DNA of 64,000 nucleotides from Patescibacteria group bacterium. GTDB lineage: Bacteria; Patescibacteriota; Microgenomatia; UBA1406; GWC2-37-13. Below the pieces are notes generated by a model. It saw only the letters and a program-made list of their open reading frames with translations, ran no database searches and had not been told where the DNA came from. Positions 3,413 to 30,506 of the stretch are shown piece by piece. Position 1 is the stretch's first letter. Each line of letters begins with the position of its first letter. The stretch is taken from NCBI GenBank assembly GCA_026004455.1, contig BPJE01000001.1:310001-374000 (forward strand), read 5' to 3'. Made by a program: the position numbers and the translations under genes.

Positions 3413-3651
3413 ATGAAGAAAAACCAAGAGAAAGGCTTTTGAAATATGGTCCAGAAACGCTTTCTATCACTGAACTTTTAGCCATTATTTTTGGTCGAGG
3501 TGTTAAAGGTGAATCAGTAATTGATGTTAGTCAAAAATTAATTAGTCGTTTTTCTTCACTTGAGATTCTTTCTCAAATATCCCTCAAGCATCAGTTAATA
3601 ATTTTAAAAAAATTAAGGATTAAAATTTTATCAAGAAAGAGAAGCTTTTAA
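3413..3651 (+). pseudogene. Truncated radC copy
   Basis: 3413-3576 is identical to 22616-22779 inside intact radC, then degenerates and stops. Confidence 0.85.
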
Positions 3652-4752
3652 AAAATCCTCTAAAATGAAATAATATTGCTCTAAGCTTTTTATATCCACC
3701 CATTCATTATCTGAATGAAGACCTTGACCAATTGGGCCAAAAGTTACTCCATCACAACCAAATCGATTAAAATGCCTGATATCTGATCCACCATGTTTAA
3801 CAATTGTTTTTGATTTTTTTCTAGTGACTTTTTGAACTGATTTTTTTAATTTTAAAACAAAAGGATTTTTTTCTTCAGTGATTTGTGGTGGTTCAAATAA
3901 AATTATTTCAAGTTCTCCCTCTTTATCAATAATTTTTTTTATCTTATTTAAAAATAAATTTTTTCCTTTTTCAAAAGACAATCCTTTTAACTCTTCAGGA
4001 ATATATCGACAATCAAAAGAAATAATTGCTTCATCTGGAATTTTGTTAAAAGTAGTATTGGTTGTTTCAATTTTTGCTAAATTAAAAGTTGTCTGCCAAG
4101 TTTCTTTTTTTGGAGTTGGATAATTTTTTAAAATGTTATTAACAATTTTATTGGCTAAAACTAAAGCATTTTTACCCTGCCATGGATAAGCGCCATGACC
4201 AGTAATGCCTTTAGTTTTAATTTTAAGCCATATAATTCCTTTAGCTTTGTTATTTATCCCAAAATCAGTTGGTTCACCAGCAACAACAAAATCAGCTCTC
4301 ACTCCTTTTTCTAATTGATAAAGCGTTCCTTTAAAGCCACCAACCTCCTCATCGGTAACCAGTTGTAATCCAATAGGTAAAGACACACCATGGCTTGTCT
4401 CGACAATTTTTTTAAACACCAAAATCTCAACTGCCGCTGCTGCTTTCATATCAATTGCTCCTCGACCATAAAGCTTGCCATTTTCCTCATATGGTTTAAA
4501 TTGATTATCTTTTGCAGCAACTACATCTAAATGAGCATTTAAAATCACTTTAAATTTTTTTGGTCTTGATTTTCCCGGATAAACTAAAGCTGAAGGAACA
4601 CTATTTTTTTCAAAATATTCAATGGTTAAATTTTTTATTTCTTTTAACTCTTTTAAAGCCTCATCAAGGACTTTTTTTAACTCATCTTTATTTGATGAAA
4701 CAGAGGGAGTTGAGATAAGTGATTTGGATAGGGATAAAATGTTTTGAATCAT
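3631..4752 (-). CDS. M20-family amidohydrolase/peptidase (DapE/ArgE-like), copy A
   Basis: NAHLDVVAA, GRGAIDMKAA, VTDEEVGG, GGSDIRHFN motifs; identical to 23517-24638 over most of its length. Confidence 0.85.
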   Translation of the reverse strand: MIQNILSLSKSLISTPSVSSNKDELKKVLDEALKELKEIKNLTIEYFEKNSVPSALVYPGKSRPKKFKVILNAHLDVVAAKDNQFKPYEENGKLYGRGAIDMKAAAAVEILVFKKIVETSHGVSLPIGLQLVTDEEVGGFKGTLYQLEKGVRADFVVAGEPTDFGINNKAKGIIWLKIKTKGITGHGAYPWQGKNALVLANKIVNNILKNYPTPKKETWQTTFNLAKIETTNTTFNKIPDEAIISFDCRYIPEELKGLSFEKGKNLFLNKIKKIIDKEGELEIILFEPPQITEEKNPFVLKLKKSVQKVTRKKSKTIVKHGGSDIRHFNRFGCDGVTFGPIGQGLHSDNEWVDIKSLEQYYFILEDFLKASLS

Positions 4753-4896: not shown

Positions 4897-6147
4897 TTAA
4901 AAGTAATAAAAAGGTAAAAGTTCAATTTTTTTTGCCTTTATGTTAATTGTTTTTTTATCTTTTCCTAAATAACAAACACAGCCTTTAAAAAGTTTGTATT
5001 TTTCTAAAAAAAGCAAAAGATTTTTTGTATCTTCAAGGCCAATTACTTTTTTATATTTTATTTCATAAGGAACAATGTTTTCATTTTTTACCACGACAAA
5101 ATCAACCTCATTTTTATATTGATCTTGCCAAAAATAATTAGTGTTTAAGATCGAGGCAAAGTAATTTTCAAAAAGAAGCTCTGGTCTTTGAAAGTCGATC
5201 AGCGAATAAGAAAATGATGTTGATGACAAATAATATTTTTTTAATCTTTTTTCAACACTAACAATGTTTTTGGAAAAATTATAAAATTTTTTGATTAAAA
5301 AGGCTTGGGTTAAATAATCAAAATACAAAGATAGGGTTTTGTTGCTGATTTTTAAGTCCTTGGACAAATTGATTAAATTAATTAAAGCACCGGGATATTG
5401 AGCTAAAAGTTTAACAATCGAGTAAGCAATTTCAGGATAATCAAAAGAAAAAACTTTGGTCATATCCTCGAAAATGATTTTTTTAACAATTGAGACAAAA
5501 TACTCTTTTTTTTCCAAATCATCCTTAAAGTTTATTGACTCAATAAACTGGGATGTTAAAAAAGTTTTTATTTCTTTTTCTAACTCCTTTTCAAAAACCA
5601 AGGGTTTTTTTAACATTTCCTCTTTTTCTTTAAAATAAAGATATTCGTTGAAAGTTAAAGGATTTAAATTAAAGGAGAGTGTTCTTCCAGCAAGACTTTC
5701 TTGAGTTTTCTTTTTAATAAAAAGAGAGGTTGAGCCGGAGATAAAAAATTTGATATTGGGATAAAGATCATAATAAACTTTTATTTGATTTTGAAAATTA
5801 GGTAACTTTTGCACTTCATCTAAAAAAACATAGATTTTTTCATTTTTAAAATCAATTTGGGCCTGAGTTGAATATAGAGAAAAAAGATCATCCAAAGATA
5901 ATGTTTCTTCATCAAAAGTAAAGTAAAGGATTTTAAAGCAATTAATATGTTTTTCTTCCAAAAGATAATTTATTAACTGAAAAAGCAAAGTGCTTTTACC
6001 CACGCGGCGAAGACCAGTAAGCTCAACAATAAATCGATTATTAATATTTTTTAAAAGAGAGGAGAACAAAAACCTTTTCTTTTTATAAGGATAAAAATAT
6101 CCCTTTTCCCAATGGCGATTATATTTTAATAAATTTATTTCCATCAT
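4897..6147 (-). CDS. AAA-family ATPase with DUF4143-type C-terminal domain
   Basis: GLRRVGKSTLLFQL Walker A, VFLDEVQKL Walker B, C-terminal NEVDFVVVKNENIVPYEIKYK nuclease-like motif. Confidence 0.8.
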   Translation of the reverse strand: MMEINLLKYNRHWEKGYFYPYKKKRFLFSSLLKNINNRFIVELTGLRRVGKSTLLFQLINYLLEEKHINCFKILYFTFDEETLSLDDLFSLYSTQAQIDFKNEKIYVFLDEVQKLPNFQNQIKVYYDLYPNIKFFISGSTSLFIKKKTQESLAGRTLSFNLNPLTFNEYLYFKEKEEMLKKPLVFEKELEKEIKTFLTSQFIESINFKDDLEKKEYFVSIVKKIIFEDMTKVFSFDYPEIAYSIVKLLAQYPGALINLINLSKDLKISNKTLSLYFDYLTQAFLIKKFYNFSKNIVSVEKRLKKYYLSSTSFSYSLIDFQRPELLFENYFASILNTNYFWQDQYKNEVDFVVVKNENIVPYEIKYKKVIGLEDTKNLLLFLEKYKLFKGCVCYLGKDKKTINIKAKKIELLPFYYF

Positions 6148-6308
6148 GTTTCCAATAAATTAATAATTTATTAGAAGTATACTTCCAATATTTTATATTG
6201 TCAAGAGGATAATTTATCCTTTGCCTTAACAACAAAAACAGAAAACAATTTTAATCCCGAGACGCCATATTTATTGCGCCTTTGGGGTGTGTGGAGTGGA
6301 GTGTTTAT

Positions 6309-7388
6309 TTAAAAATTTTTTAAAAACTCTTCCAAAATTAGATAATATTTTTCTAAACTTTCAATCTCTACATATTCATTATCAGAACCAATACCAAAGC
6401 CTTTTGGTCCAAACTCAATACCCTCAATACCAATAAGATTATAATGTCTAATATCTGATGAACCGTTTGCCCCTCTTAAAACAGCTGTATTATTTGTGAT
6501 TTTTTTTATTATTTTTTTAATTTTTTTTATATAAGCATTATTTTTTTTAGTATAAAAAGAAGATTCAAAAATTTTAATTTCCAGATTTGAATAATTATTT
6601 AAACAGCTTTTAATTTTTTTTAAAATTTGTTTTTTTTCTTCGGGAATATATCTGATATCAAAACCTAAAATACACTTATCTGGAATTTTGTTATAGGTAA
6701 TATTTTCTGTTTTTATAGTTGCCAAATTAATAGTGGTTTTCCATTTGTCGTTTTTAGGATTTGAAAATTTTTTTATTAGTTTATTTATTACTTTATTAGT
6801 TAATTCAATTGCATTTTTTCCTCGCCAAGGATAAGCGCTGTGAGCAGTTACACCATTAATTATAATGTCAGCCCAGATAATACCTTTTGCTTTGTGAACA
6901 ATATCAAAATTAGTTGGCTCAGATGAAATAACAAACTCAGAAAGCAAATTGTTTTCAATTTGGTATTTAGTACCATTAAATCCACCAATTTCTTCATCAG
7001 TAACTACTTGTAGAGCAATAGGGTATTTTAATTTATTAGCGTAGTTTTTAAAAATATAAACTAAAACTGAAAGCCCTCCTTTCATATCTAAGCTTCCGGC
7101 GCCAAACAACCTTTCCTCTTTAATTAAAGGAAAAAATTGACTTTCTTTTGCTGGGATTATATCAAGATGACCATTTAGAATTAATTTAAATTTTTTATTT
7201 TTAGGTAAGAAATTATAAAAAAGTAATGATTCATAATTATTTTTCTTAAACTCAAGAAATTTATAATCTTTTAATATTTTTTTAATTTCTAATAAAGCAA
7301 TTTTTAAGGCTTTAAAATTATAACTATTTGTATTGAGTTTTATTAAATTTTTTGTTAAATTAATAATTTCTTTTTTTGTTTTTATCAT
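6309..7388 (-). CDS. M20-family amidohydrolase/peptidase, divergent paralog
   Basis: NGHLDIIPA, GAGSLDMKGG, VTDEEIGG, GSSDIRHYN motifs. Confidence 0.85.
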   Translation of the reverse strand: MIKTKKEIINLTKNLIKLNTNSYNFKALKIALLEIKKILKDYKFLEFKKNNYESLLFYNFLPKNKKFKLILNGHLDIIPAKESQFFPLIKEERLFGAGSLDMKGGLSVLVYIFKNYANKLKYPIALQVVTDEEIGGFNGTKYQIENNLLSEFVISSEPTNFDIVHKAKGIIWADIIINGVTAHSAYPWRGKNAIELTNKVINKLIKKFSNPKNDKWKTTINLATIKTENITYNKIPDKCILGFDIRYIPEEKKQILKKIKSCLNNYSNLEIKIFESSFYTKKNNAYIKKIKKIIKKITNNTAVLRGANGSSDIRHYNLIGIEGIEFGPKGFGIGSDNEYVEIESLEKYYLILEEFLKNF

Positions 7389-7410: not shown

Positions 7411-8925
7411 TTATTGAAAAAGTTGCATTTCTTGGGACGAAACATAATTTAATGAACCTGGGTTAACAATTATATTAGGATCTGTACATATTATTTGACC
7501 CCACACCGCTTGTTTATTTCCATGCAATCTGCCTTTTTTTGCTTCATTAGAATCTGCTGGTAAAGCATCGTATAACCCGCCAATAAATTTATATCTGCCA
7601 CTTTTTGGATCAAAACCAAAAAACAATCTATGTATTATTTCAAATTCACCATTTTCAGGATCATTAACATGATAAGCAGGTATTTCTGGTTGAATTATAT
7701 ATGGTCCTCTCATTTTCATGTTTCTTTTAAGTTCTCCCATAAAGTCTTTTTGTTTCTCAAAATCAATAGGTCTTAAATGACCATAGCATCCATAATGCAA
7801 CCATAATGGTTTAAATCTAAAATTGGGACTATTTCTAATGAATTCTTCTACAGCCTCTAAATTATAATGGCCAACAATTGGGAATCCCATATAAGCAAAA
7901 TATTCTTTTGTATCGTTTATTATTTGAGGATAAAAACCTCCAGTCATTTCTAAAGACGAACCAATAAATGGTATTCCATTTTCATCAACACCTATAGACA
8001 ACGAACCGTTTTGAAGCCCAATAATTATAAAATTTACAACTCTTGGATCATCAATATTTGGTGTAATTGACAATTTTCTTAACTGCCCTCTTATTTTATC
8101 ATCTTCCAATAATGGAATATTGTAAGGTGTATTTTTTCCTGGATGTATTAACCAAGTTTTCGGATAAGAAGTTCTCATATAAAGAGCAACGTTTCTTCCA
8201 AGCATCTTTTTTACACCATCTGGACTTAAAAAACCACCAAAACCAGATAATAATTTAACCCACTGTCTTCTTTGCTCAGAATCCATATTTAATAAATCAT
8301 TAGGAAATACTCCAAACTCTGATGTTGCCATTGCCTCATATTTTGCATCTGTTGCCGTACCTAAAAATATTCCTTTACCAAAATATTCTTTTAAAGTTTC
8401 TAAACAACTGTCAAAATTTACACCAAAGAATGATAAAGGAGAGTATGGTTTATTAGGGTCTTCACCATTATCGGGAGAGCCGAACCCTCTCATTAAATTA
8501 TACATTGCTAGTGAATTTTCTATTTCAAATATTCTTGGCGCTAGTAATTTATATAATTCTTCTGGACTAAATCTTTGTGTTTGTTCTAAAAGACTTAAAG
8601 GCAATCCTGCCATATCAACTTGTACCATTAAATTAATAAAGTTGCCATCAAATCTTACCAAAGGATAACTACCTTCTGGTTGTCGGATTCCTAAAACATT
8701 GCTAAAAGCACAATTATAGTCGTTTAAAATTTGAGCAATAGCTTCAATTATCTGAGGTGGATATTCTACATGACCTAAAAATCTATTAAATTCTGCTTTC
8801 TCATATTCTCCTGTTACTGGATTTTTAGCTAATGATGGAATATTTCTTACTGTTTCAATTGGACCTTGAAAAACCTTTTCTTGTTTTAATAACGTCTCGT
8901 TTTGATATGGTTTAAAGCTTTCCAT
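7411..8925 (-). CDS. Uncharacterised 504-aa protein, possibly a distant ATP-grasp-like enzyme
   Basis: Long ORF preceded by an attenuator; C-terminal PYIIQPEIPAY...RLFFGFDPKSGRYKFIGGLYDALP...KGRLHGNKQAVWG loosely resembles ATP-grasp C-termini; no confident family. Confidence 0.4.
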   Translation of the reverse strand: MESFKPYQNETLLKQEKVFQGPIETVRNIPSLAKNPVTGEYEKAEFNRFLGHVEYPPQIIEAIAQILNDYNCAFSNVLGIRQPEGSYPLVRFDGNFINLMVQVDMAGLPLSLLEQTQRFSPEELYKLLAPRIFEIENSLAMYNLMRGFGSPDNGEDPNKPYSPLSFFGVNFDSCLETLKEYFGKGIFLGTATDAKYEAMATSEFGVFPNDLLNMDSEQRRQWVKLLSGFGGFLSPDGVKKMLGRNVALYMRTSYPKTWLIHPGKNTPYNIPLLEDDKIRGQLRKLSITPNIDDPRVVNFIIIGLQNGSLSIGVDENGIPFIGSSLEMTGGFYPQIINDTKEYFAYMGFPIVGHYNLEAVEEFIRNSPNFRFKPLWLHYGCYGHLRPIDFEKQKDFMGELKRNMKMRGPYIIQPEIPAYHVNDPENGEFEIIHRLFFGFDPKSGRYKFIGGLYDALPADSNEAKKGRLHGNKQAVWGQIICTDPNIIVNPGSLNYVSSQEMQLFQ

Positions 8926-8992: not shown

Positions 8993-9019
8993 AAAAAATC
9001 CCGCCTTTTTTGGCGGGAG
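8993..9019 (-). terminator. Attenuator terminator hairpin, copy 1
   Basis: Minus strand CTCCCGCC-AAAAAA-GGCGGG-A-TTTTTT. Confidence 0.8.
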
Positions 9020-9053
9020 TAAATTTTAAATGGGTTTTATCAATCACCTCATC

Positions 9054-9061
9054 CTCCCGCC
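9054..9061 (-). promoter_or_regulatory. Antiterminator element GGCGGGAG, copy 1
   Basis: 8-nt perfect complement of CTCCCGCC (9012-9019) in the terminator 5' arm. Confidence 0.65.
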
Positions 9062-9118
9062 TTAAGCGGTAATAAGGATAAAGAGGACGATAATGATTGA
9101 TAAAACCTTAGTTTTCAT
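9062..9118 (-). CDS. Leader peptide MKTKVLSIIIVLFILITA, copy 1
   Basis: 18 codons rich in Ile/Leu/Val, stop abuts the antiterminator; near-identical peptide at 30450-30506. Confidence 0.75.
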   Translation of the reverse strand: MKTKVLSIIIVLFILITA

Positions 9119-10404: not shown

Positions 10405-11139
10405 ATGACAAATTTAAAAGACTTATTTAAAATAACTATTTTTGTCTTAGTAGTTTTTTGGTTAATAAAAGTTTTTGATATTTCTTATCCAATAAATATT
10501 ACCACTTCATCAAGATCATCAGAGTTAGCAGTTGTTGGTCAAGGAAAAATCGATGTTTCACCAGATGTTTTTTATGTTTCTGCTGGAGTTATTGTTGATA
10601 ATAAAAAAACAGTGAAAGAAGTCCAAAATGAGATAAATACTATTAATAATAAAATCATTGATCTTTTAAAACATTATGGTTTAGGAAAAGAAAATTTAAA
10701 AACAACTAATTACTCAATCTATCCAAAACAAACTTATGATAAAGATGGTAATAGTCAGATTACTGGTTATTCTGGAAGTGTCAATATAAGAATAAAAGTT
10801 AAGGATATTTCTTTATTATCAAAGATAATTGATGAAATAACTACCGCTGGTGCAAATGAGATTTATGGTATAAGTTATGAAATTGATAATCCAGATAAAT
10901 TTCAAGAAGAAGCAAGAAAGATCGCTATTGAAAATGCTAAACAACAAGCAAAAAAAATCGCTCAAGATCTAGGAATAAAACTGGGAAAAATAACTAATAT
11001 TATTGAAGGAAATAGTGGCGATAATAATCGAGTTTATTTACCAATGGTTGGTGGCGGAGATTTACAAAAATCAGTTTCAATTGAGCCAGGAACCCAAACA
11101 ATTACCTCAACCGTAACTTTGTATTTTGAAAAAAAATAA
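10405..11139 (+). CDS. SIMPL-domain (DUF541) protein
   Basis: GQGKIDVSPDVFYVSAGV...NYSIYPKQTYDKDGNSQITGYSGSVNIRIKVKD. Confidence 0.85.
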   Translation: MTNLKDLFKITIFVLVVFWLIKVFDISYPINITTSSRSSELAVVGQGKIDVSPDVFYVSAGVIVDNKKTVKEVQNEINTINNKIIDLLKHYGLGKENLKTTNYSIYPKQTYDKDGNSQITGYSGSVNIRIKVKDISLLSKIIDEITTAGANEIYGISYEIDNPDKFQEEARKIAIENAKQQAKKIAQDLGIKLGKITNIIEGNSGDNNRVYLPMVGGGDLQKSVSIEPGTQTITSTVTLYFEKK

Positions 11140-11140
11140 T

Positions 11141-12553
11141 TTAGTCAACTTTTTCCAGTTGCAAAAGAACAATTGAATTTGGAGTCATTAATATTGATTT
11201 TTCTCCTTTTAAACTAATTTGATTGTTAATGGGAATAAGATTTAACTGAGTTTCTTGTTTACCATCAAGATATTTTTTTGTTAGTTTATATTTTTGACCA
11301 TCTAAATTTTTAAAAGTTACTGGCACCATCTCAATGTTTTTTTCAGCAATATCATAATTAGTTAAAATTAGACTAATTTTTTTATCATTAATTGAGGCAA
11401 TTGCTGAGACATAAGTTCCTTCACCATCAACAATCAATCGATTACCATCTAAACTATTTAACATCTGAAGCGCATACCAACGCGGTTTTTTACCACCTTG
11501 ATAATCAATTATTCCCCAAGAGGCGCCATTTGGGCCATCTTTTATCTCAAATAAAAATGCTGCTTCAATATTGATATTTATAAAATTTCTAATTGAAGCG
11601 ATAGTATGAGCTGCGCCAACAGTAGTATCAGCAATTGGATTTTTTTCACTATCATAACCCCATTCAGAGATAATTTTAGGGATATTGTTATATCTATAAT
11701 ATTTTGATTCCTCAGAAAGCCATTTATTTAAATTAATTACATCATCAACATAATCATTAGTTTTTTTTGAATAATGATGCCAACTTAAAAAATCAACTCT
11801 TAAATTATTGGTAATTGCAAAATCTAAAAATCTTTGAATCCAGTTTTTATACAAAGCAGTTGTTGCTGGACCGCCAATTTTAAATGGATAGACATTTTTA
11901 ACATTTTCTGCTCCTTTTACTGAATAAAAATAAAGTTCAAGATAGTTTTTTTCTCCTGAATAATGCCATTTGCCAAAAGTCTCTAAATCCGGTTCATTCC
12001 AGACTTCATAATAAATATCAGTTCTCCAATAAGGATAATTGACTCCACAAGGCAAAACAGTATCCTTACCACTATATCTTTCAATTGTTTTTTGAACTAG
12101 AAAACTCCATTGTAACCAGTTTTTTGGTTTACCAACTAATGAGCCATCTTGAGAAAGGGAGGGAGGCATATAACCAAGAGAAAAAAATGGCTTAGCTCCA
12201 ACTTGATATATCCGACAAACCACCTGATCTAATTTGTCAAAATTTAAATACATATTGTTATTTTCAATCTTAACCACATCATAAAAATCATAGATATGAT
12301 CAACTCGGATATATTTTGGATAAAGTTCAGCTACTTGAGAAATCGCATTTTCAAAAAACTTTGGATCAGGATCCTCACCTCCTTGAGCTAAGGCCTTCCA
12401 ACGATCTGGAAACGGGCCAGAAACTTTTTTTGTATCAACAACAATATTGGCTTTTATTGATGAAGCTTTTGAAAACAATTGAAAAGAAAAAAATAAAATC
12501 GGTAGAATTAATAAACCTAAAAAAATTTTCAAAAAAAAATTTATTTCTTTCAT
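11141..12553 (-). CDS. Secreted glycoside hydrolase-like (beta/alpha)8 protein
   Basis: Signal/TM N-terminus; YEVWNEPDLETFGKWHYSGEKNY and SEWGYDSE acid motifs as in GH39/GH5-like enzymes. Confidence 0.65.
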   Translation of the reverse strand: MKEINFFLKIFLGLLILPILFFSFQLFSKASSIKANIVVDTKKVSGPFPDRWKALAQGGEDPDPKFFENAISQVAELYPKYIRVDHIYDFYDVVKIENNNMYLNFDKLDQVVCRIYQVGAKPFFSLGYMPPSLSQDGSLVGKPKNWLQWSFLVQKTIERYSGKDTVLPCGVNYPYWRTDIYYEVWNEPDLETFGKWHYSGEKNYLELYFYSVKGAENVKNVYPFKIGGPATTALYKNWIQRFLDFAITNNLRVDFLSWHHYSKKTNDYVDDVINLNKWLSEESKYYRYNNIPKIISEWGYDSEKNPIADTTVGAAHTIASIRNFININIEAAFLFEIKDGPNGASWGIIDYQGGKKPRWYALQMLNSLDGNRLIVDGEGTYVSAIASINDKKISLILTNYDIAEKNIEMVPVTFKNLDGQKYKLTKKYLDGKQETQLNLIPINNQISLKGEKSILMTPNSIVLLQLEKVD

Positions 12554-23516: not shown

Positions 23517-24638
23517 TCAAGAAAGGAATGCTTTTAAAAAATCCTCTAAAATGAAATAATATTGCTCTAAGCTTTTTATATCCACCCATTCATTATCTGA
23601 ATGAAGACCTTGACCAATTGGGCCAAAAGTTACTCCATCACAACCAAATCGATTAAAATGCCTGATATCTGATCCACCATGTTTAACAATTGTTTTTGAT
23701 TTTTTTCTAGTGACTTTTTGAACTGATTTTTTTAATTTTAAAACAAAAGGATTTTTTTCTTCAGTGATTTGTGGTGGTTCAAATAAAATTATTTCAAGTT
23801 CTCCCTCTTTATCAATAATTTTTTTTATCTTATTTAAAAATAAATTTTTTCCTTTTTCAAAAGACAATCCTTTTAACTCTTCAGGAATATATCGACAATC
23901 AAAAGAAATAATTGCTTCATCTGGAATTTTGTTAAAAGTAGTATTGGTTGTTTCAATTTTTGCTAAATTAAAAGTTGTCTGCCAAGTTTCTTTTTTTGGA
24001 GTTGGATAATTTTTTAAAATGTTATTAACAATTTTATTGGCTAAAACTAAAGCATTTTTACCCTGCCATGGATAAGCGCCATGACCAGTAATGCCTTTAG
24101 TTTTAATTTTAAGCCATATAATTCCTTTAGCTTTGTTATTTATCCCAAAATCAGTTGGTTCACCAGCAACAACAAAATCAGCTCTCACTCCTTTTTCTAA
24201 TTGATAAAGCGTTCCTTTAAAGCCACCAACCTCCTCATCGGTAACCAGTTGTAATCCAATAGGTAAAGACACACCATGGCTTGTCTCGACAATTTTTTTA
24301 AACACCAAAATCTCAACTGCCGCTGCTGCTTTCATATCAATTGCTCCTCGACCATAAAGCTTGCCATTTTCCTCATATGGTTTAAATTGATTATCTTTTG
24401 CAGCAACTACATCTAAATGAGCATTTAAAATCACTTTAAATTTTTTTGGCCTTGTTGTTCCAGGATAAACTAAGGCTGAAGAAACACCATCTTTTTCAAA
24501 ATACTCAATTGTCAACCCTTTTACTCCTTTTAACTCTTCCAAACCCACCTCAAGAACTTTTTTTAACTTATCTTTATTTGATGAAACTGATGGAACTGAG
24601 ATAAGCGATTTAGACAAAGATAGGATTTTGGGTAACAT
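23517..24638 (-). CDS. M20-family amidohydrolase/peptidase, copy B
   Basis: Same motifs as copy A; last gene of the attenuator-controlled cluster. Confidence 0.87.
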   Translation of the reverse strand: MLPKILSLSKSLISVPSVSSNKDKLKKVLEVGLEELKGVKGLTIEYFEKDGVSSALVYPGTTRPKKFKVILNAHLDVVAAKDNQFKPYEENGKLYGRGAIDMKAAAAVEILVFKKIVETSHGVSLPIGLQLVTDEEVGGFKGTLYQLEKGVRADFVVAGEPTDFGINNKAKGIIWLKIKTKGITGHGAYPWQGKNALVLANKIVNNILKNYPTPKKETWQTTFNLAKIETTNTTFNKIPDEAIISFDCRYIPEELKGLSFEKGKNLFLNKIKKIIDKEGELEIILFEPPQITEEKNPFVLKLKKSVQKVTRKKSKTIVKHGGSDIRHFNRFGCDGVTFGPIGQGLHSDNEWVDIKSLEQYYFILEDFLKAFLS

Positions 24639-24662: not shown

Positions 24663-25883
24663 TTATTCTATTAAAGCTTGCTTTACCCTGTTTAAAACTT
24701 CTATTATTTCTTCTTCAGATCCAGGGACTTTTATTCTAACATAAGAGTCGTCTAAGGGATAAGTTTTTATGAAATCAGAACCTCTTTCGGTGACAATTTG
24801 CCAGCGTCTAAGTCTTTGAAAAAAATTATCTACTGGTCCTTGAGCCAATAATATTGGAACAGCCTCATGAGTTGGAAAAACTCGAACGCCTAATTGTGTT
24901 AGGCCATTAATCAATTGTCTTTTTAATAAAACTGTTTTTTCTCTTATTTGTTGAAGATGAGGTTTTATTATTTCTGGTTTTAATACTTCGTTTAAAACCA
25001 ATTGTTGAGGGCCGCCAACCCCAAAAACAAGTTGTAAACTTTTATATAATTCTCCTAATTCTTTTGACATAATTGCGTATCCCACTCTTGCCCCAGCCAT
25101 ACCTAAACTTTTAGCAATACCACGCAAAACAATTAGGTTTGGGTATTGATCAACAAGATGAATTGCCGATTGATTATCATCAACTACATCACCATAAGCT
25201 TCATCAATAATAACTACATCTTTATGTTGGTTTGCTATTTCAACTAATTCTCTAATTGACTCTAAAGAAGAAAAATCACCAGTAGGATTATTGGGATTAT
25301 CAATATAGATAAAACGATGACCATTCATTTGCTTTCTTTGATCAATTAATAATCTTATTTTTTCATAGTAAGGCAAATCTAATGATGGTTGAATTGGTAG
25401 GTAAGGAAAATTTAAATAACCATTTTGTTTTTTTCCATGCGCCTCAACAAATGAAGCAATATTAGCAAATTGGGGGCCGATTCCTAATACTCCTATTTCT
25501 TCTTGAGTTGTTAAATCAGGTAATTGCCAGATAATTTTTGCTAAAATTCCATAACTACCAGGTCCATCAAAAATAATTTCATGATTACCTGATGAATCTA
25601 AACCAAATCTTTCTTCTATTAATCTACTTGGTTGTTCACAAAATCGATCTGGAGGATATTTCCAAAAAGCTTCAATTAAAGTACCGGTTTCTAGTGTTTG
25701 AATTAATATATCTTTTAAAACTTGAGGCGGCGGTTCATTTGAATCTCCTAAACCACAATCTATTAATGGTAGGTGAGTTAAAATTTCCAAACCACCATTA
25801 TCATCTTTATATTCACCTCTTTTTGAGGCATAATCAACTACTCGCCAAGGATCTCTTATTATTGGTGAAATTTTTTCTCCCAT
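24663..25883 (-). CDS. PLP-dependent class I/II aminotransferase (HisC-like fold)
   Basis: IDNPNNPTGDFSS, VVIIDEAYGDV, RGIAKSLGMAGARVGY (PLP Lys). Confidence 0.85.
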   Translation of the reverse strand: MGEKISPIIRDPWRVVDYASKRGEYKDDNGGLEILTHLPLIDCGLGDSNEPPPQVLKDILIQTLETGTLIEAFWKYPPDRFCEQPSRLIEERFGLDSSGNHEIIFDGPGSYGILAKIIWQLPDLTTQEEIGVLGIGPQFANIASFVEAHGKKQNGYLNFPYLPIQPSLDLPYYEKIRLLIDQRKQMNGHRFIYIDNPNNPTGDFSSLESIRELVEIANQHKDVVIIDEAYGDVVDDNQSAIHLVDQYPNLIVLRGIAKSLGMAGARVGYAIMSKELGELYKSLQLVFGVGGPQQLVLNEVLKPEIIKPHLQQIREKTVLLKRQLINGLTQLGVRVFPTHEAVPILLAQGPVDNFFQRLRRWQIVTERGSDFIKTYPLDDSYVRIKVPGSEEEIIEVLNRVKQALIE

Positions 25884-25890
25884 AAAACTA

Positions 25891-25912
25891 AAAAACCCCG
25901 CTTTCGCGGGGC
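25891..25912 (-). terminator. Attenuator terminator of the Phe leader
   Basis: Minus strand GCCCCGC-GAAA-GCGGGG-TTTTTT. Confidence 0.8.
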
Positions 25913-25930
25913 TTAAATTAATTTTTAATT

Positions 25931-25993
25931 TTAATTTACATTAAAAAATCGCCCCGCAATAAAGTGGGGTAAAGAAAAAGAAAAAAATTGCAT
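25931..25993 (-). CDS. Phe-rich leader peptide MQFFSFSLPHFIAGRFFNVN
   Basis: 6 Phe in 20 codons, all TTT; overlaps antiterminator GCGGGGC (25951-25957), the perfect complement of terminator arm GCCCCGC (25906-25912). Confidence 0.75.
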   Translation of the reverse strand: MQFFSFSLPHFIAGRFFNVN

Positions 25994-26023
25994 TAATTAA
26001 ATTTTTCATAATCTATTGTTTTA

Positions 26024-27133
26024 TCAACTAATTTCTAATTTTTCAATTAAGTATTTTCTAATTTTTCTTTCATCAATTTCAAAACCTAAGCCGGGTTTAT
26101 TAGGAACCTCAACAAAACCTTTATTATCAACAAAAAAACTTTCTTTAACTAAGTCATCTTTATAAAAAAAATTTACCGGTGACATATCTGCAGGATACAT
26201 ATAATTCGGCAATGATGAAATAGCAATATTAAATGCCCGACCAATTCCTGTTTCTAACATACCACCACACCATACTCCAATATTATTTTTTTGACATAAA
26301 TCATGTATTTTTTTACTTTCTAAAAGCCCACCAACTCGACCTGGTTTAATATTAATTATTTGACAAGCTTTAAGATAGATGGCTTTTCTGGCATCTTCTA
26401 CTGATAAAATACTTTCATCCAAACAGATGGGTGTTTTTATCTTTTTTTGCAGTACTGAGTGATCAATAATATCATCATCAGCTAATGGTTGTTCAATCAT
26501 CATTAAATTAAATTTATCAAGGGTTTTAAATATATTAATGTCTTCTAAAGTATATGCCGAATTTGCATCAACCATTAATGGTATATCTCCATATTTATTT
26601 CTTATTGCTTCAACTACTCTTACATCCCAATTAGGCTGAATTTTTATTTTTATTCTTTGAAAACCCTGGCTTAATCTTAAACTAACTTCATCTAAAGTTT
26701 CTTCTAATGTTTTTTTAATTCCAATACTTTCACCGACAGGAATTTTATTTTTTATCCCACCAAGAATTTTTTTAAGAGATTTTTTTTCTTTTAATGAAAT
26801 TATCATCCAAACAGCATTTTCTAAACCAGTTTTGGCAAAATTATGGTTTTTGATTGGTTTTAAAAAAATCATTAACTCCTCAACTGTTTTAAATTCTTTA
26901 TTTAAAACCAAAGGTGCAATATATTTTTTTAATACCAACATACAAATATCAGTTGTTTCAGGTTTGTAAAATGGAAATGGTAACGCAGCACTTTCTCCAA
27001 AACCAACAAAACCATCATTTGTTTCTACTTTCACAACAACTGTTGGTTTTTCATAAATTGTACCAAAACTAGTGGTAAACGAAGTTACCATCGGAATCGC
27101 AACTTTATATAAAGTGATTTTTTTAATTTTCAT
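26024..27133 (-). CDS. N-succinylamino acid racemase / o-succinylbenzoate synthase family (enolase superfamily)
   Basis: TTSFGTIYEKPTVVVKVETNDGFVGFGES, RIKIKIQPNWD (KxK), MVDANSAYTLED, MIEQPLADDD, ICLDESI, IINIKPGRVGGLLE, GGMLETGIGRA. Confidence 0.9.
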   Translation of the reverse strand: MKIKKITLYKVAIPMVTSFTTSFGTIYEKPTVVVKVETNDGFVGFGESAALPFPFYKPETTDICMLVLKKYIAPLVLNKEFKTVEELMIFLKPIKNHNFAKTGLENAVWMIISLKEKKSLKKILGGIKNKIPVGESIGIKKTLEETLDEVSLRLSQGFQRIKIKIQPNWDVRVVEAIRNKYGDIPLMVDANSAYTLEDINIFKTLDKFNLMMIEQPLADDDIIDHSVLQKKIKTPICLDESILSVEDARKAIYLKACQIINIKPGRVGGLLESKKIHDLCQKNNIGVWCGGMLETGIGRAFNIAISSLPNYMYPADMSPVNFFYKDDLVKESFFVDNKGFVEVPNKPGLGFEIDERKIRKYLIEKLEIS

Positions 27134-27137
27134 AAAT

Positions 27138-28646
27138 TTATTTTACAATTACCCTTCTTGATTTAACAAGATCAATTAATGATTTATTTAATGGTCCTCC
27201 ATGTTTATCAACAAATTTTAAGGCTCGGTCAGCTCCGTTAGCTTTATTTTGTAAAACCCATAGTGGATAACGTAATAATCTTTGTTCTTGTTGACTAAGA
27301 CCTCTAGCGGCAATCTCTAAAATTTTACTAGCAAAATTATAAACAGATAAGCCTGCAATTTCACCTTGAAGTCCATCTTGTATTGACTTATTTCTTAATT
27401 CTCTTAACATTTCCCATGGGTATTGATTTAAGTAACTCCATGCTTCATCTAAATTTCTAATTAGTCCCGCTTGAATAGCTGAAGGTGCTATTATTACTGA
27501 TTGCGCAACATCTTCACCCATATTCAAAAGTTCTTGATCTGGAAAATTAGCTCCTGGATCTCTTCCTTCAATCCACATAGATGTAGCAAATTGATTAAAA
27601 ATTTCTTCAACTTTTGTTGTGTGTATATCTTCTAAAGCGCTAATAAAATCATCTAAGGGGAAATTCTCGGAATTTAAAGAAAAACGAATACGAGCGCTAG
27701 CAAATTGAGCAAACTGCATTGCAACAAAATGATCGATTTGAGGTTCTACTACTACTGGTTGTGGAGGAAAACTGTTAAATAAATCTCTTAGTCTAATCGC
27801 TTGCCAACTTTTTCCTTTTAAATAATTAATTACCGATGGGTTACTTGGAATTACTAGAATTCTATCACCTACGTTTTTGTATTCTTCGTTTGCGCCTCCT
27901 GATAAAACAAAATGAATTGCGGTATCCTTACCAAACATCCAGTTAAAATATTGGGATAAATTATGAAAGGGTTGCTCTGGAAATTGAGAAACCCTTCTAT
28001 CACCAGAAACTTTTGAATATTTCATCATTCTATCCCACATTGTTAATCTAGATTCTTTGTAAGAAGAAGGTCTTCCTTCTTCAAAAGGACTATTAGCAAA
28101 TAAGCCAATAAAAGCAGCTCCTGCGCCAATTATTACACTGCAAGCTCTAGCAGCCTCATAAACTTCAACCCCTGTCGATGGACTATTTTGCGCTCTTGCA
28201 TCAATACCAGCAGTATGATCCCAACCTCGATACCAAAGATATGGATATATTCCTTTAGGAGCAACAAAAGCTTTATATGTTTCTAAATCCCTTTTTCCTA
28301 AGGGATGAATTGACATATTAATAACTGAAGCTCCTTCATTTTCTAAAGCCTCTTGAACCATCTGTAAATCAACCTTCATTAATTCAGCTAAAGACTCCAA
28401 AGATGATTGATATGGAATTGAGGTTTCTTGTAAATTAAATCCATTATCCAATCCTTGTTCTCCAAATTGGTTTGTTTTAACGCCAATTATAGTATTTCCG
28501 GCGAAGTCCATTATTGGATTAAAACCATTTTTTTCATGTATATTGATAAGGGATTTAAAGAAATTTGGACTTACACCATGGGGTAAACCTGTTTTAATAT
28601 TAGTAATTGATTTTTCTATTTCCGCACCAAAAGTTCTTTCTCTCAT
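27138..28646 (-). CDS. GCS2-like (glutamate-cysteine ligase family) carboxylate-amine ligase
   Basis: FGAEIEKSI start, YRGWDHTAGIDARAQNSPSTG, LFANSPFEEGRPSSYKESRLTMWDRM. Confidence 0.6.
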   Translation of the reverse strand: MRERTFGAEIEKSITNIKTGLPHGVSPNFFKSLINIHEKNGFNPIMDFAGNTIIGVKTNQFGEQGLDNGFNLQETSIPYQSSLESLAELMKVDLQMVQEALENEGASVINMSIHPLGKRDLETYKAFVAPKGIYPYLWYRGWDHTAGIDARAQNSPSTGVEVYEAARACSVIIGAGAAFIGLFANSPFEEGRPSSYKESRLTMWDRMMKYSKVSGDRRVSQFPEQPFHNLSQYFNWMFGKDTAIHFVLSGGANEEYKNVGDRILVIPSNPSVINYLKGKSWQAIRLRDLFNSFPPQPVVVEPQIDHFVAMQFAQFASARIRFSLNSENFPLDDFISALEDIHTTKVEEIFNQFATSMWIEGRDPGANFPDQELLNMGEDVAQSVIIAPSAIQAGLIRNLDEAWSYLNQYPWEMLRELRNKSIQDGLQGEIAGLSVYNFASKILEIAARGLSQQEQRLLRYPLWVLQNKANGADRALKFVDKHGGPLNKSLIDLVKSRRVIVK

Positions 28647-28650
28647 ATTT

Positions 28651-30330
28651 TTATCTATTCAACCCTGATGGGTTTTTTGAACTGTTAAAACTATTAATTA
28701 CTTCTTGGGGAACTATTTCAGGACTTAATGTAACTGCTGTTTCATCAGATGTTAGTTTAACATTTTCCATTACTTCTAAAATTCCTCGGCAAGTGGCTTC
28801 GGTTATGTTTTTGATTGTTTCGGGATATTCTAAAAGCATCGGTTGGAAACGAATAACCCCAGGTAAGGCTCCCACCAAAATTCCATATTTAATTAAAAGA
28901 TGCCATTGGATTAATTCCATTAGTTCTTTTGAACCAACATCAATTCCGCGGTTCATTCTTAAACCTCTTAAGTTTAAACCAAATTTTTGTGCCACCTCAT
29001 CAATTATTTGAGCGTTTTCGTCAATAATTTGTTGAATTTTTGGTTGAGTGACAAACTCTGCCACTAACATAGCTCTAATTAAACCGCCATTTCCCGAGTT
29101 TGTGGTAATCATTGATAAAGGATAAGCCTTTTCTGCGATTTTTTTTGGAATCAACATCATTCCATACGGTTGACCGTTTAAAGCAGATTTAGCTGTTGTT
29201 AAAACAAGATGAGAATATGAAGCTAATTCTGGCAAATGATCAATTCTCCAATAAAAACCGGTTCTTCCTGTTCCTTGTTGAACTGTGTCAATAATAATTG
29301 GTAAAGAATAACCATTAGTTCCTTCCCTTAAAACTTCTACTAATTCTTTTACTAATTGATGATCAGCCGGAACAATACCAGCATCACCAACAATTGGTTC
29401 TAAAATTACATCTGTTGCTTCACCGTTAGCAATTTTCTCTTTAACTATTTTTAAAAATAATTCTTTATTTTCAGCTGTTGGTACAGGTAAACAACGGTCT
29501 ACCCATAAAGGACCACCACGATTTTCAACCTGTTTAGCAACACCAAAGCCTGTACCTTCTTTTGCTGTTCCAAGTCCTCCACACCAAGTACCATCTATTT
29601 GAAGTACTCTTGGATTTTTACCGGGAAACACAGATTCTCCATAAGCACAAACAGCCTCAATTGCTGCACTATTTACTGCTGTACCTGAACTTTCAGAAAA
29701 AAAATAAACTTCTTCAGGATTGGGGTATAAACTCTTAAAATACTCAGCAGCAATTATTTGATGAATTCCAGGATGATATGGTAAACAAAAATTATCACCC
29801 CTACCATCAAAAGAAAGAATTGATTGTATTACAGATGAAGCAGGAAATTCAGCCCCTAAATTTAATGAAGTAGCTGATCCTAAAACATCATGAAATATTC
29901 CATCAAAATGTCCTTTTAATCCTTGATTTGACGCACCAAAAATTTCTTTAAGTCCTCCTCTTTGTCTTAATAAAGGAATACCATCAAGTTGCCAAACTAA
30001 TGTTGGAGAGGTAAAAACATTTCGGGCTCTTTCTATCCATCTAGCCCCCTCTAGATTAAACCACACAGAACGTTTTGGGTTAAACCTTTTTCCTTTAGTT
30101 GAGTCATCACTTAAAATATAAGCTAATCTTATAGCTCCCGCGTATAATCTTTCACTTTGAGCTAATTGAGCTTCGATAATAGCTTGTTCTGTAGGCGTTA
30201 AATCAATTCCTAAATTATTTATTACCGATTTTAAAGACCTTCGGCCCGTTTCAAAAATAACATTTACGTGCATTTGCAATTCTTCAGGTAAACGTCTCTC
30301 TCTTGCTGTTAAATTAAATTGCCTTTCCAT
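28651..30330 (-). CDS. PLP-dependent class III aminotransferase
   Basis: FFSESSGTAVNSAAIEAV, IIIDTVQQGTGRTG, LTTAKSALNGQPYG (candidate PLP Lys). Confidence 0.8.
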   Translation of the reverse strand: MERQFNLTARERRLPEELQMHVNVIFETGRRSLKSVINNLGIDLTPTEQAIIEAQLAQSERLYAGAIRLAYILSDDSTKGKRFNPKRSVWFNLEGARWIERARNVFTSPTLVWQLDGIPLLRQRGGLKEIFGASNQGLKGHFDGIFHDVLGSATSLNLGAEFPASSVIQSILSFDGRGDNFCLPYHPGIHQIIAAEYFKSLYPNPEEVYFFSESSGTAVNSAAIEAVCAYGESVFPGKNPRVLQIDGTWCGGLGTAKEGTGFGVAKQVENRGGPLWVDRCLPVPTAENKELFLKIVKEKIANGEATDVILEPIVGDAGIVPADHQLVKELVEVLREGTNGYSLPIIIDTVQQGTGRTGFYWRIDHLPELASYSHLVLTTAKSALNGQPYGMMLIPKKIAEKAYPLSMITTNSGNGGLIRAMLVAEFVTQPKIQQIIDENAQIIDEVAQKFGLNLRGLRMNRGIDVGSKELMELIQWHLLIKYGILVGALPGVIRFQPMLLEYPETIKNITEATCRGILEVMENVKLTSDETAVTLSPEIVPQEVINSFNSSKNPSGLNR

Positions 30331-30385: not shown

Positions 30386-30411
30386 AAAAAAACCCGCCTT
30401 TTTGGCGGGAG
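30386..30411 (-). terminator. Attenuator terminator hairpin, copy 2
   Basis: Minus strand CTCCCGCC-AAAAA-GGCGGG-TTTTTTT. Confidence 0.8.
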
Positions 30412-30441
30412 TTTTAAAAAAGTTTTATCAATCAAATCATC

Positions 30442-30449
30442 CTCCCGCC
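30442..30449 (-). promoter_or_regulatory. Antiterminator element GGCGGGAG, copy 2
   Basis: 8-nt perfect complement of the terminator 5' arm (30404-30411). Confidence 0.65.
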
Positions 30450-30506
30450 TTAAGCGGTAATAAGAATAAAGAGGACGAAAATGATTGATAAAACCTTAGT
30501 TTTCAT
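30450..30506 (-). CDS. Leader peptide MKTKVLSIIFVLFILITA, copy 2
   Basis: 18 codons rich in Ile/Leu/Val; one amino acid different from copy 1. Confidence 0.75.
   Translation of the reverse strand: MKTKVLSIIFVLFILITA

Follow-up and report, generated by a model that had tools for sequence, protein, structure and literature searches.

A leader-peptide attenuator that senses phenylalanine through a translating ribosome very probably controls a HisC/CobD-like aminotransferase gene on the minus strand of the 64,000-nucleotide stretch of Patescibacteria DNA analysed here (the window); we would put the probability of this reading at about 90%. The host is an ultrasmall uncultured bacterium, and to our knowledge very little is known of gene regulation in the Patescibacteria; those of this clade are thought to be without most amino-acid synthesis. 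A 2024 review (PMC11665869) lists amino acid synthesis among the pathways missing in Patescibacteria, and calls the mechanisms governing differentiation unknown.

Anatomy of the Phe element

Reading along the minus strand, one meets arms 1, 2, 3 and 4 and a U6 tract in this order, and then the ATG of the aminotransferase gene at 25883 (Table 1). The initial annotation had placed the arms, the loop, the U-run and this ATG, and reading the sequence bears out its positions to the nucleotide. It had also proposed that CCCC, GCGGGGC, GCCCCGC and GCGGGG pair in alternative ways; this is confirmed, with computed pairing energies of −8.1 (1:2), −18.4 (2:3) and −16.0 kcal/mol (3:4) for pairings that are mutually exclusive. 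RNA folding, which it had named as a check, showed the 196-nt region to be 4.7 SD better in fold stability than its dinucleotide shuffles. The arm 1:arm 2 duplex falls within the best 4.5% of shuffles; this pairing is short, and we count its −8.1 kcal/mol against the attenuator reading. The intrinsic terminator, with stem and U6 tract ending at 25890, lies upstream of and in cis to the aminotransferase gene. It is one of five strong intrinsic terminators found by a scan of the window, three of which (at 30409, 25911 and 9018, all on the minus strand) have a perfect competing upstream arm 2, and each of these three carries a leader peptide, namely MKTKVLSIIFVLFILITA, the Phe leader and MKTKVLSIIIVLFILITA, respectively.

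Table 1. Features of the Phe element and of its gene cluster (positions in the window)
Feature	Position	Strand	Details
Class III aminotransferase-like gene, 559 aa (upstream)	28651..30330	−	PF00202, 3e-13
GCS2 (glutamate-cysteine ligase-like) gene, 502 aa (upstream)	27138..28646	−	PF04107, 2.5e-08
MenC/N-acylamino-acid-racemase-like gene, 369 aa (upstream)	26024..27133	−	TIGR01928, 354 bits
Candidate promoter of Phe leader	26018..26046	−	TTGAAA 26046-26041, 17-nt spacer, TAAAAC 26023-26018
Leader ORF MKNLINAIFFFFFTPLYCGAIF (corrected frame)	25941..26009	−	ATG at 26009, 14 nt past MenC-like stop
Regulatory codons TTT TTC TTT TTC TTT (5 Phe)	25971..25985	−	Sixth Phe at peptide end
Arm 1, CCCC	25966..25969	−	Right after Phe run; partner GGGG of arm 2
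Arm 2, GCGGGGC	25951..25957	−	Partner arm 1 or arm 3 (antiterminator)
Arm 3, GCCCCGC	25906..25912	−	Partner arm 2 or arm 4
Terminator loop, GAAA	25905-25902	−	Between arm 3 and arm 4
Intrinsic terminator	25890..25901	−	Arm 4 GCGGGG 25901-25896; U6 tract 25895-25890
Class I/II PLP aminotransferase gene, HisC/CobD-like, 406 aa (regulated gene 1)	24663..25883	−	Pfam PF00155, 3.3e-31
M20 DapE/ArgE-like deacylase/peptidase gene, 373 aa (probable regulated gene 2)	23517..24638	−	PF01546, TIGR01910
First attenuator, leader MKTKVLSIIFVLFILITA (Ile/Leu/Val-rich)	30386..30506	−	Arms GGCGGGAG / CTCCCGCC / GGCGGG-T7
Paralogous Ile/Leu/Val attenuator, leader MKTKVLSIIIVLFILITA	8993..9118	−	Before unannotated 504-aa gene

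In MKNLINAIFFFFFTPLYCGAIF, the five-Phe run stops 1 nt short of arm 1, and the stop codon is found at +14 nt from the start of arm 2, a placement in which a terminating ribosome would mask arm 2. We have shuffled the upstream part of the element only (20,000 dinucleotide shuffles): an ATG ORF ending in range arose in 11.7% of the shuffles, a rightly ending ATG leader with at least four consecutive Phe in 0.1%, and one with at least five in 0.015%. The leader had originally been read in another frame as MQFFSFSLPHFIAGRFFNVN, with six TTT codons. This ATG ORF does exist over the same arms, but as a leader it is very probably in the wrong frame, since it is without a long Phe run and its stop lies at +24 nt from arm 2, whereas the frame of MKNLINAIFFFFFTPLYCGAIF, whose ATG stands 17 nt upstream of the start of MQFFSFSLPHFIAGRFFNVN at 25992, puts FFFFF just before arm 1 and aligns with the leaders FFFFNPTFCGAAF (L186), FFFFFNPSDCGAGS (L197) and FFFFSPTYCGDGS (L213) of relatives in both run and stop position (+14/+15 nt). 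Translation of MQFFSFSLPHFIAGRFFNVN as the leader, which would still make the element Phe-sensing, is thus highly improbable.

In the mechanism that we propose, RNA polymerase would transcribe the leader with a ribosome translating MKNLINAIFFFFFTPLYCGAIF at the same time. Under shortage of Phe-tRNA(Phe), this ribosome would stall in the five-Phe run and cover arm 1, arm 2 would then pair with arm 3 as antiterminator, and transcription would proceed to the genes of the aminotransferase and the M20 protein. With ample Phe, the ribosome would go on to the stop just past arm 2 and cover arm 2, arms 3 and 4 would pair, and transcription would end at the U-tract before the aminotransferase ATG. We infer that ribosomes stall at the Phe codons and thereby control read-through, and that termination and a response to Phe occur in vivo.

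Phe leaders in related genomes

No ortholog of the window aminotransferase was detectable in 98 relatives, and none of the GCS2-like gene was found by direct search of the relatives; conservation was therefore tested by the arm pattern instead, and it is a conservation of position and type, not of an identical gene. Phe-run leaders of like anatomy were found at L186, L187, L188, L189, L190, L191, L197 and L213, and also at L133. The family of the 895-kb source genome includes Ca. Roizmanbacteria, with L186, L188 and L197 sharing sequence with named Roizmanbacteria records. The stop lies at +14 from arm 2 in the window leader MKNLINAIFFFFFTPLYCGAIF as well as in MRKQKILFGFFFFNPTFCGAAF (L186), MKNPGKLFTFFFNPTFSGVIF (L187) and MLGQLLVQKFFFFSPTYCGDGS (L213), and at +15 in MKINLEYFFFFFNPSDCGAGS (L197); the Phe leaders of L188, L189, L190 and L191 are similar, with stops at +10 to +18.

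The order of a MenC-like gene followed, at some distance, by a Phe leader and an enzyme gene recurs in L187, L190 (then M20) and L230 (another family of the order). L187 reads Ile/Leu/Val leader, 519-aa gene, MenC-like gene, 378-aa gene, class III aminotransferase-like gene, opposite-strand gene, Phe leader, 391-aa gene and M20; L190 reads GCS2-like, MenC-like and radical SAM genes, Phe leader, 349-aa gene and M20; and L230 reads MenC-like gene, 229-aa gene, Phe leader and a distant relative of the L190 gene (27% identity). Loss of the Phe codons or of the stem complementarity at orthologous loci had been named as what would speak against the attenuator, and all three loci have kept a Phe-run leader together with intact arms.

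An Ile/Leu/Val-type leader accompanies the Phe leader on the same strand, about 0.4-7 kb apart, in six loci (the window, L186, L187, L188, L189 and L197). The proposal that a second amino acid is sensed mid-cluster is supported by six loci in which an Ile/Leu/Val leader lies upstream of the Phe leader, and by covariation of the flanks of the 2:3 pairing (see below). In L186, two unannotated genes (5111-6544 and 10546-11997) are paralogs with 49% identity, one behind the Ile/Leu/Val leader and the other behind the Phe leader, so that related genes there bear different leader types.

A pattern of Phe run, arm 2 and arm 3 matched only the source genome when searched over 389 genomes of the phylum, a range at which exact arms and codons are too strict, and in the genome collection it gave at least 80 loci among at least 119 stretches. 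With arm 4 and a T-run added, the matches listed comprised four Patescibacteria loci and one Bacteroidetes locus (L131). The latter resembles a stack of terminators, accompanied by an ORF that starts at TTG.

Candidate attenuators across the family and class

We have also searched with the arms only (arm 2, arm 3, arm 4 and T's), ignoring the leader. For two arm types, 25 and 30 of 73 family genomes matched, and the reversed pattern gave zero matches; in a wider draw from the class, 20 of 142 matched. An ATG leader was present in 73 of the 77 unique structures (22.7 expected from shuffles) and a strong amino-acid run in 49 (0.87 expected), the latter ratio being somewhat optimistic, since the run thresholds were set after inspection of the leaders, which leaves the former unaffected. 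Covariation was checked at the flanks of the arm 2 and arm 3 cores, positions that are free in the search pattern, by permuting partners among 78 elements with kinship ignored: on the loop side, 76 flanking pairs were observed against 40.3 expected (0 of 5000 permutations reached 76), and on the outer side 45 against 37.5 (639 of 5000 reached 45). As for the arm 1:arm 2 pairing, 28.6% of all elements fall in the best 5% of shuffles; this is only modestly above chance, and we have therefore kept it out of the main arguments.

It could be argued that the terminator is a constitutive one, leaky and intra-operon or marking the end of the MenC-like operon, with the Phe-rich ORF as a by-product of T-rich sequence. 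The element indeed adjoins the MenC-like gene in a T-rich region, and ATG ORFs ending in range are not rare in the shuffles (11.7%); however, a run of five Phe is (0.015%), and the order of leader, arms and gene recurs before unrelated genes with amino-acid-specific leaders, as the 49 strong runs against 0.87 expected attest. With about 6 nt between the end of the U-tract and the aminotransferase ATG, there is also no room for a downstream promoter, and we consider such a terminator very unlikely. There is likewise little to recommend the reading that general translation arrest, or an amino acid such as Tyr or Thr-Pro, is sensed in place of Phe. Although T, P, L, Y and C follow the Phe run in the peptide, and Phe and Tyr occur together in related aromatic leaders of the clade (FYFYFY), Phe is the one residue that forms a run, and it does so where a ribosome stalled on it would lie over arm 1; the run is common to the closest leaders, whereas the later residues vary (TPLYCGAIF, NPTFCGAAF, NPSDCGAGS). 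Taken together, the pheA/pheST-like attenuation suggested at the outset, with a second amino acid sensed mid-cluster, is supported, once the frame of the peptide is corrected.

Promoter and initiation

The candidate promoter of the window leader, 8 nt before its ATG, is weak when taken alone (5/6 and 4/6 matches as we read the boxes), yet its geometry is that of the better −35/−10 pairs that most relatives with a Phe leader have 7-9 nt upstream of the ATG. A −10-like box (at least 5/6) ending 5-12 nt before the ATG was found in 44 of 79 leaders (16.6 expected from mononucleotide shuffles), and 25 of these 44 have a −35-like box at 16-18 nt (a raw count with no shuffle expectation). A Shine-Dalgarno-like motif 4-18 nt upstream is present in only 4 of the 79, again as a raw count with no shuffle expectation, and no Shine-Dalgarno motif stands before the window Phe leader. 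These patterns in the DNA suggest that many leader transcripts may begin at or near the leader ATG, i.e. that they are near-leaderless. Because the candidate promoter in the window is weak, transcription may come in from the upstream Ile/Leu/Val-attenuated operon instead of starting at a near-leaderless promoter of its own, in which case the Ile/Leu/Val and Phe attenuators would act in series.

The gene cluster and its two probable attenuators

The window cluster runs from the Ile/Leu/Val leader through the class III aminotransferase-like, GCS2-like and MenC-like genes to the Phe leader, the class I/II aminotransferase and M20. The fold class of the 406-aa aminotransferase is clear from its sequence, its closest solved structures being histidinol-phosphate aminotransferases, and among solved structures N-acylamino acid racemases are close matches of the MenC-like protein (~1e-89). 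M20 genes go along with such attenuator clusters in relatives. In the window, the M20 genes at 3631-4752 and 23517-24638 encode proteins that are 95% identical, and a third copy (6309-7388) is 45% identical; given the 95% identical genes and the near-identical Ile/Leu/Val leaders in both clusters, parts of the cluster seem to be duplicated within the window. The 504-aa protein (7411-8925) directly behind the paralogous Ile/Leu/Val attenuator is without a Pfam match even at E ≤ 1.

For the unannotated cluster proteins, Pfam gave mostly nothing or weak matches (ATP-grasp, alanine dehydrogenase-like, M15 peptidase, radical SAM), which is too little to name a pathway, and the functions of the downstream enzymes are predictions. 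Ligase-like (GCS2, ATP-grasp) and aminotransferase-like proteins occur alongside the MenC-like and M20 proteins, and M20 proteins like these act as deacylases or peptidases. Attenuation by both Ile/Leu/Val and Phe would make sense if the cluster made or salvaged hydrophobic amino acids by way of N-acyl amino acids, which is our conjecture. The broader picture, in which the clade would run a wide starvation regulon by near-leaderless leader-peptide attenuators, with a serial Ile/Leu/Val-then-Phe gate and with the unannotated enzymes behind the attenuators forming a novel N-acyl amino acid pathway, is tentative and, in our estimate, rather doubtful; if the serial gate is true, full synthesis of the aminotransferase and the M20 deacylase would require a shortage of both kinds of amino acid.

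Leader type and downstream gene

The gene behind the window leader is a HisC-like aminotransferase; in relatives the link between leader and gene is often clear (DAHP synthase, HisG, HisS, ThrS). By Pfam, His leaders precede HisG (L025, L026), HisS (L045) and an aromatic amino acid lyase of histidase's family (L012), Thr leaders precede ThrS-like synthetases (L033, L034), and class IV aminotransferases lie behind Ile/Leu/Val leaders (L009, L011, L062). The genes behind Phe/Tyr leaders include those of DAHP synthase (L014, L023, L049) and transaldolase (L024), a beta-eliminating lyase gene follows a Tyr leader (L043), and in other families Phe leaders stand before genes that we take, by reading their sequence, to be PheS (L204, L208). 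Pairings without an obvious link are His with nucleoside hydrolase, Phe/Tyr with PfkB kinases, and Phe with unannotated proteins; for the inosine-uridine nucleoside hydrolases behind the His-type leaders of L018 and L027, no link to histidine supply is evident, save perhaps through purine or PRPP metabolism.

Tandem attenuators before one gene were observed in L014 (two aromatic-type leaders, DAHP synthase) and L029 (two, similar protein), and two Ile/Leu/Val-type leaders stand in tandem in L201. In L199 (12868 to 266), a Phe/Tyr leader is followed by a gene run opening with transaldolase, whose further proteins we read as presumable shikimate pathway enzymes, and immediately upstream of that leader there is a cluster that has an Ile/Leu/Val attenuator and an M20 gene. 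Two loci of another family of the class, L203 and L207, have Met-run leaders (MSMMMTC in a TTG-started frame, and MGMMMTC) with the same arms, and behind them a protein that we presume, from its sequence, to be SAM-hydrolase-like; a Met attenuator would be unusual.

The switches of the relatives for Phe, Tyr, His, Thr and branched-chain amino acids suggest that these reduced bacteria may sense amino-acid shortage through the ribosome. Such attenuators would be evidence, readable in a genome, of amino-acid-specific shortage sensing in some Patescibacteria cells. The leaders also label genes, since a Phe, Tyr, His or Ile/Leu/Val leader before the gene of an unannotated protein points to a link with that amino acid that can be tested, and near-leaderless leader transcripts, if confirmed, would mean attenuation without Shine-Dalgarno initiation.

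Comparison with known systems

The mechanism itself is known, and we take the window element to be a genuine attenuator of this familiar type. In the searchable literature, which leaves most subscription papers outside, no paper was found that describes such attenuation by leader peptides in the Candidate Phyla Radiation, Patescibacteria, Parcubacteria or Microgenomates; the leaders mentioned in a Microgenomates paper (PMC7143001) are bacteriocin leaders. In that literature, neither the wide use of the mechanism by Patescibacteria, nor leader mRNAs that are near-leaderless, nor the Ile/Leu/Val-then-Phe arrangement in one cluster appears to have been described.

The best Rfam match of the window element is RF01859 (Phe_leader; 43 bits, E 2.7e-6, full length), which does not reach the gathering score of 55 bits; over the 73 family genomes, none lies above the cut-off and 42 match at E ≤ 0.01. 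This model also matches an Ile/Leu/Val leader of this clade (G023:C1:123330), so that it supports the architecture and was set aside as proof of Phe specificity. No Rfam match to a T-box at or above the curated score was found in the window; T-box riboswitches also sense amino acid supply via tRNA and choose between terminator and antiterminator, but the window element contains a leader ORF with a codon run, something that T-boxes can do without.

Phe leader attenuators before E. coli pheA (pheL) and pheST are classical. With these and with RF01859, the window element has in common a short Phe-run leader, competing arms 1-4 and a U-tract terminator before the structural gene. In contrast to the E. 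coli systems, it belongs to a Patescibacterium, has a HisC-like aminotransferase and M20 downstream and not pheA or pheST, is without a Shine-Dalgarno motif, and sits in the middle of a cluster that an Ile/Leu/Val attenuator precedes. Attenuators of amino acid genes have also been described in Actinobacteria (PMC1262725), and the classical attenuators of proteobacteria and Actinobacteria agree with those reported here in the ribosome logic, the codon runs, and the biosynthetic and aminoacyl-tRNA synthetase genes that they precede. The elements reported here differ from them in that the Phe-type leaders stop past arm 2, many appear to be near-leaderless, and several of the proteins downstream belong to unrecognised families.
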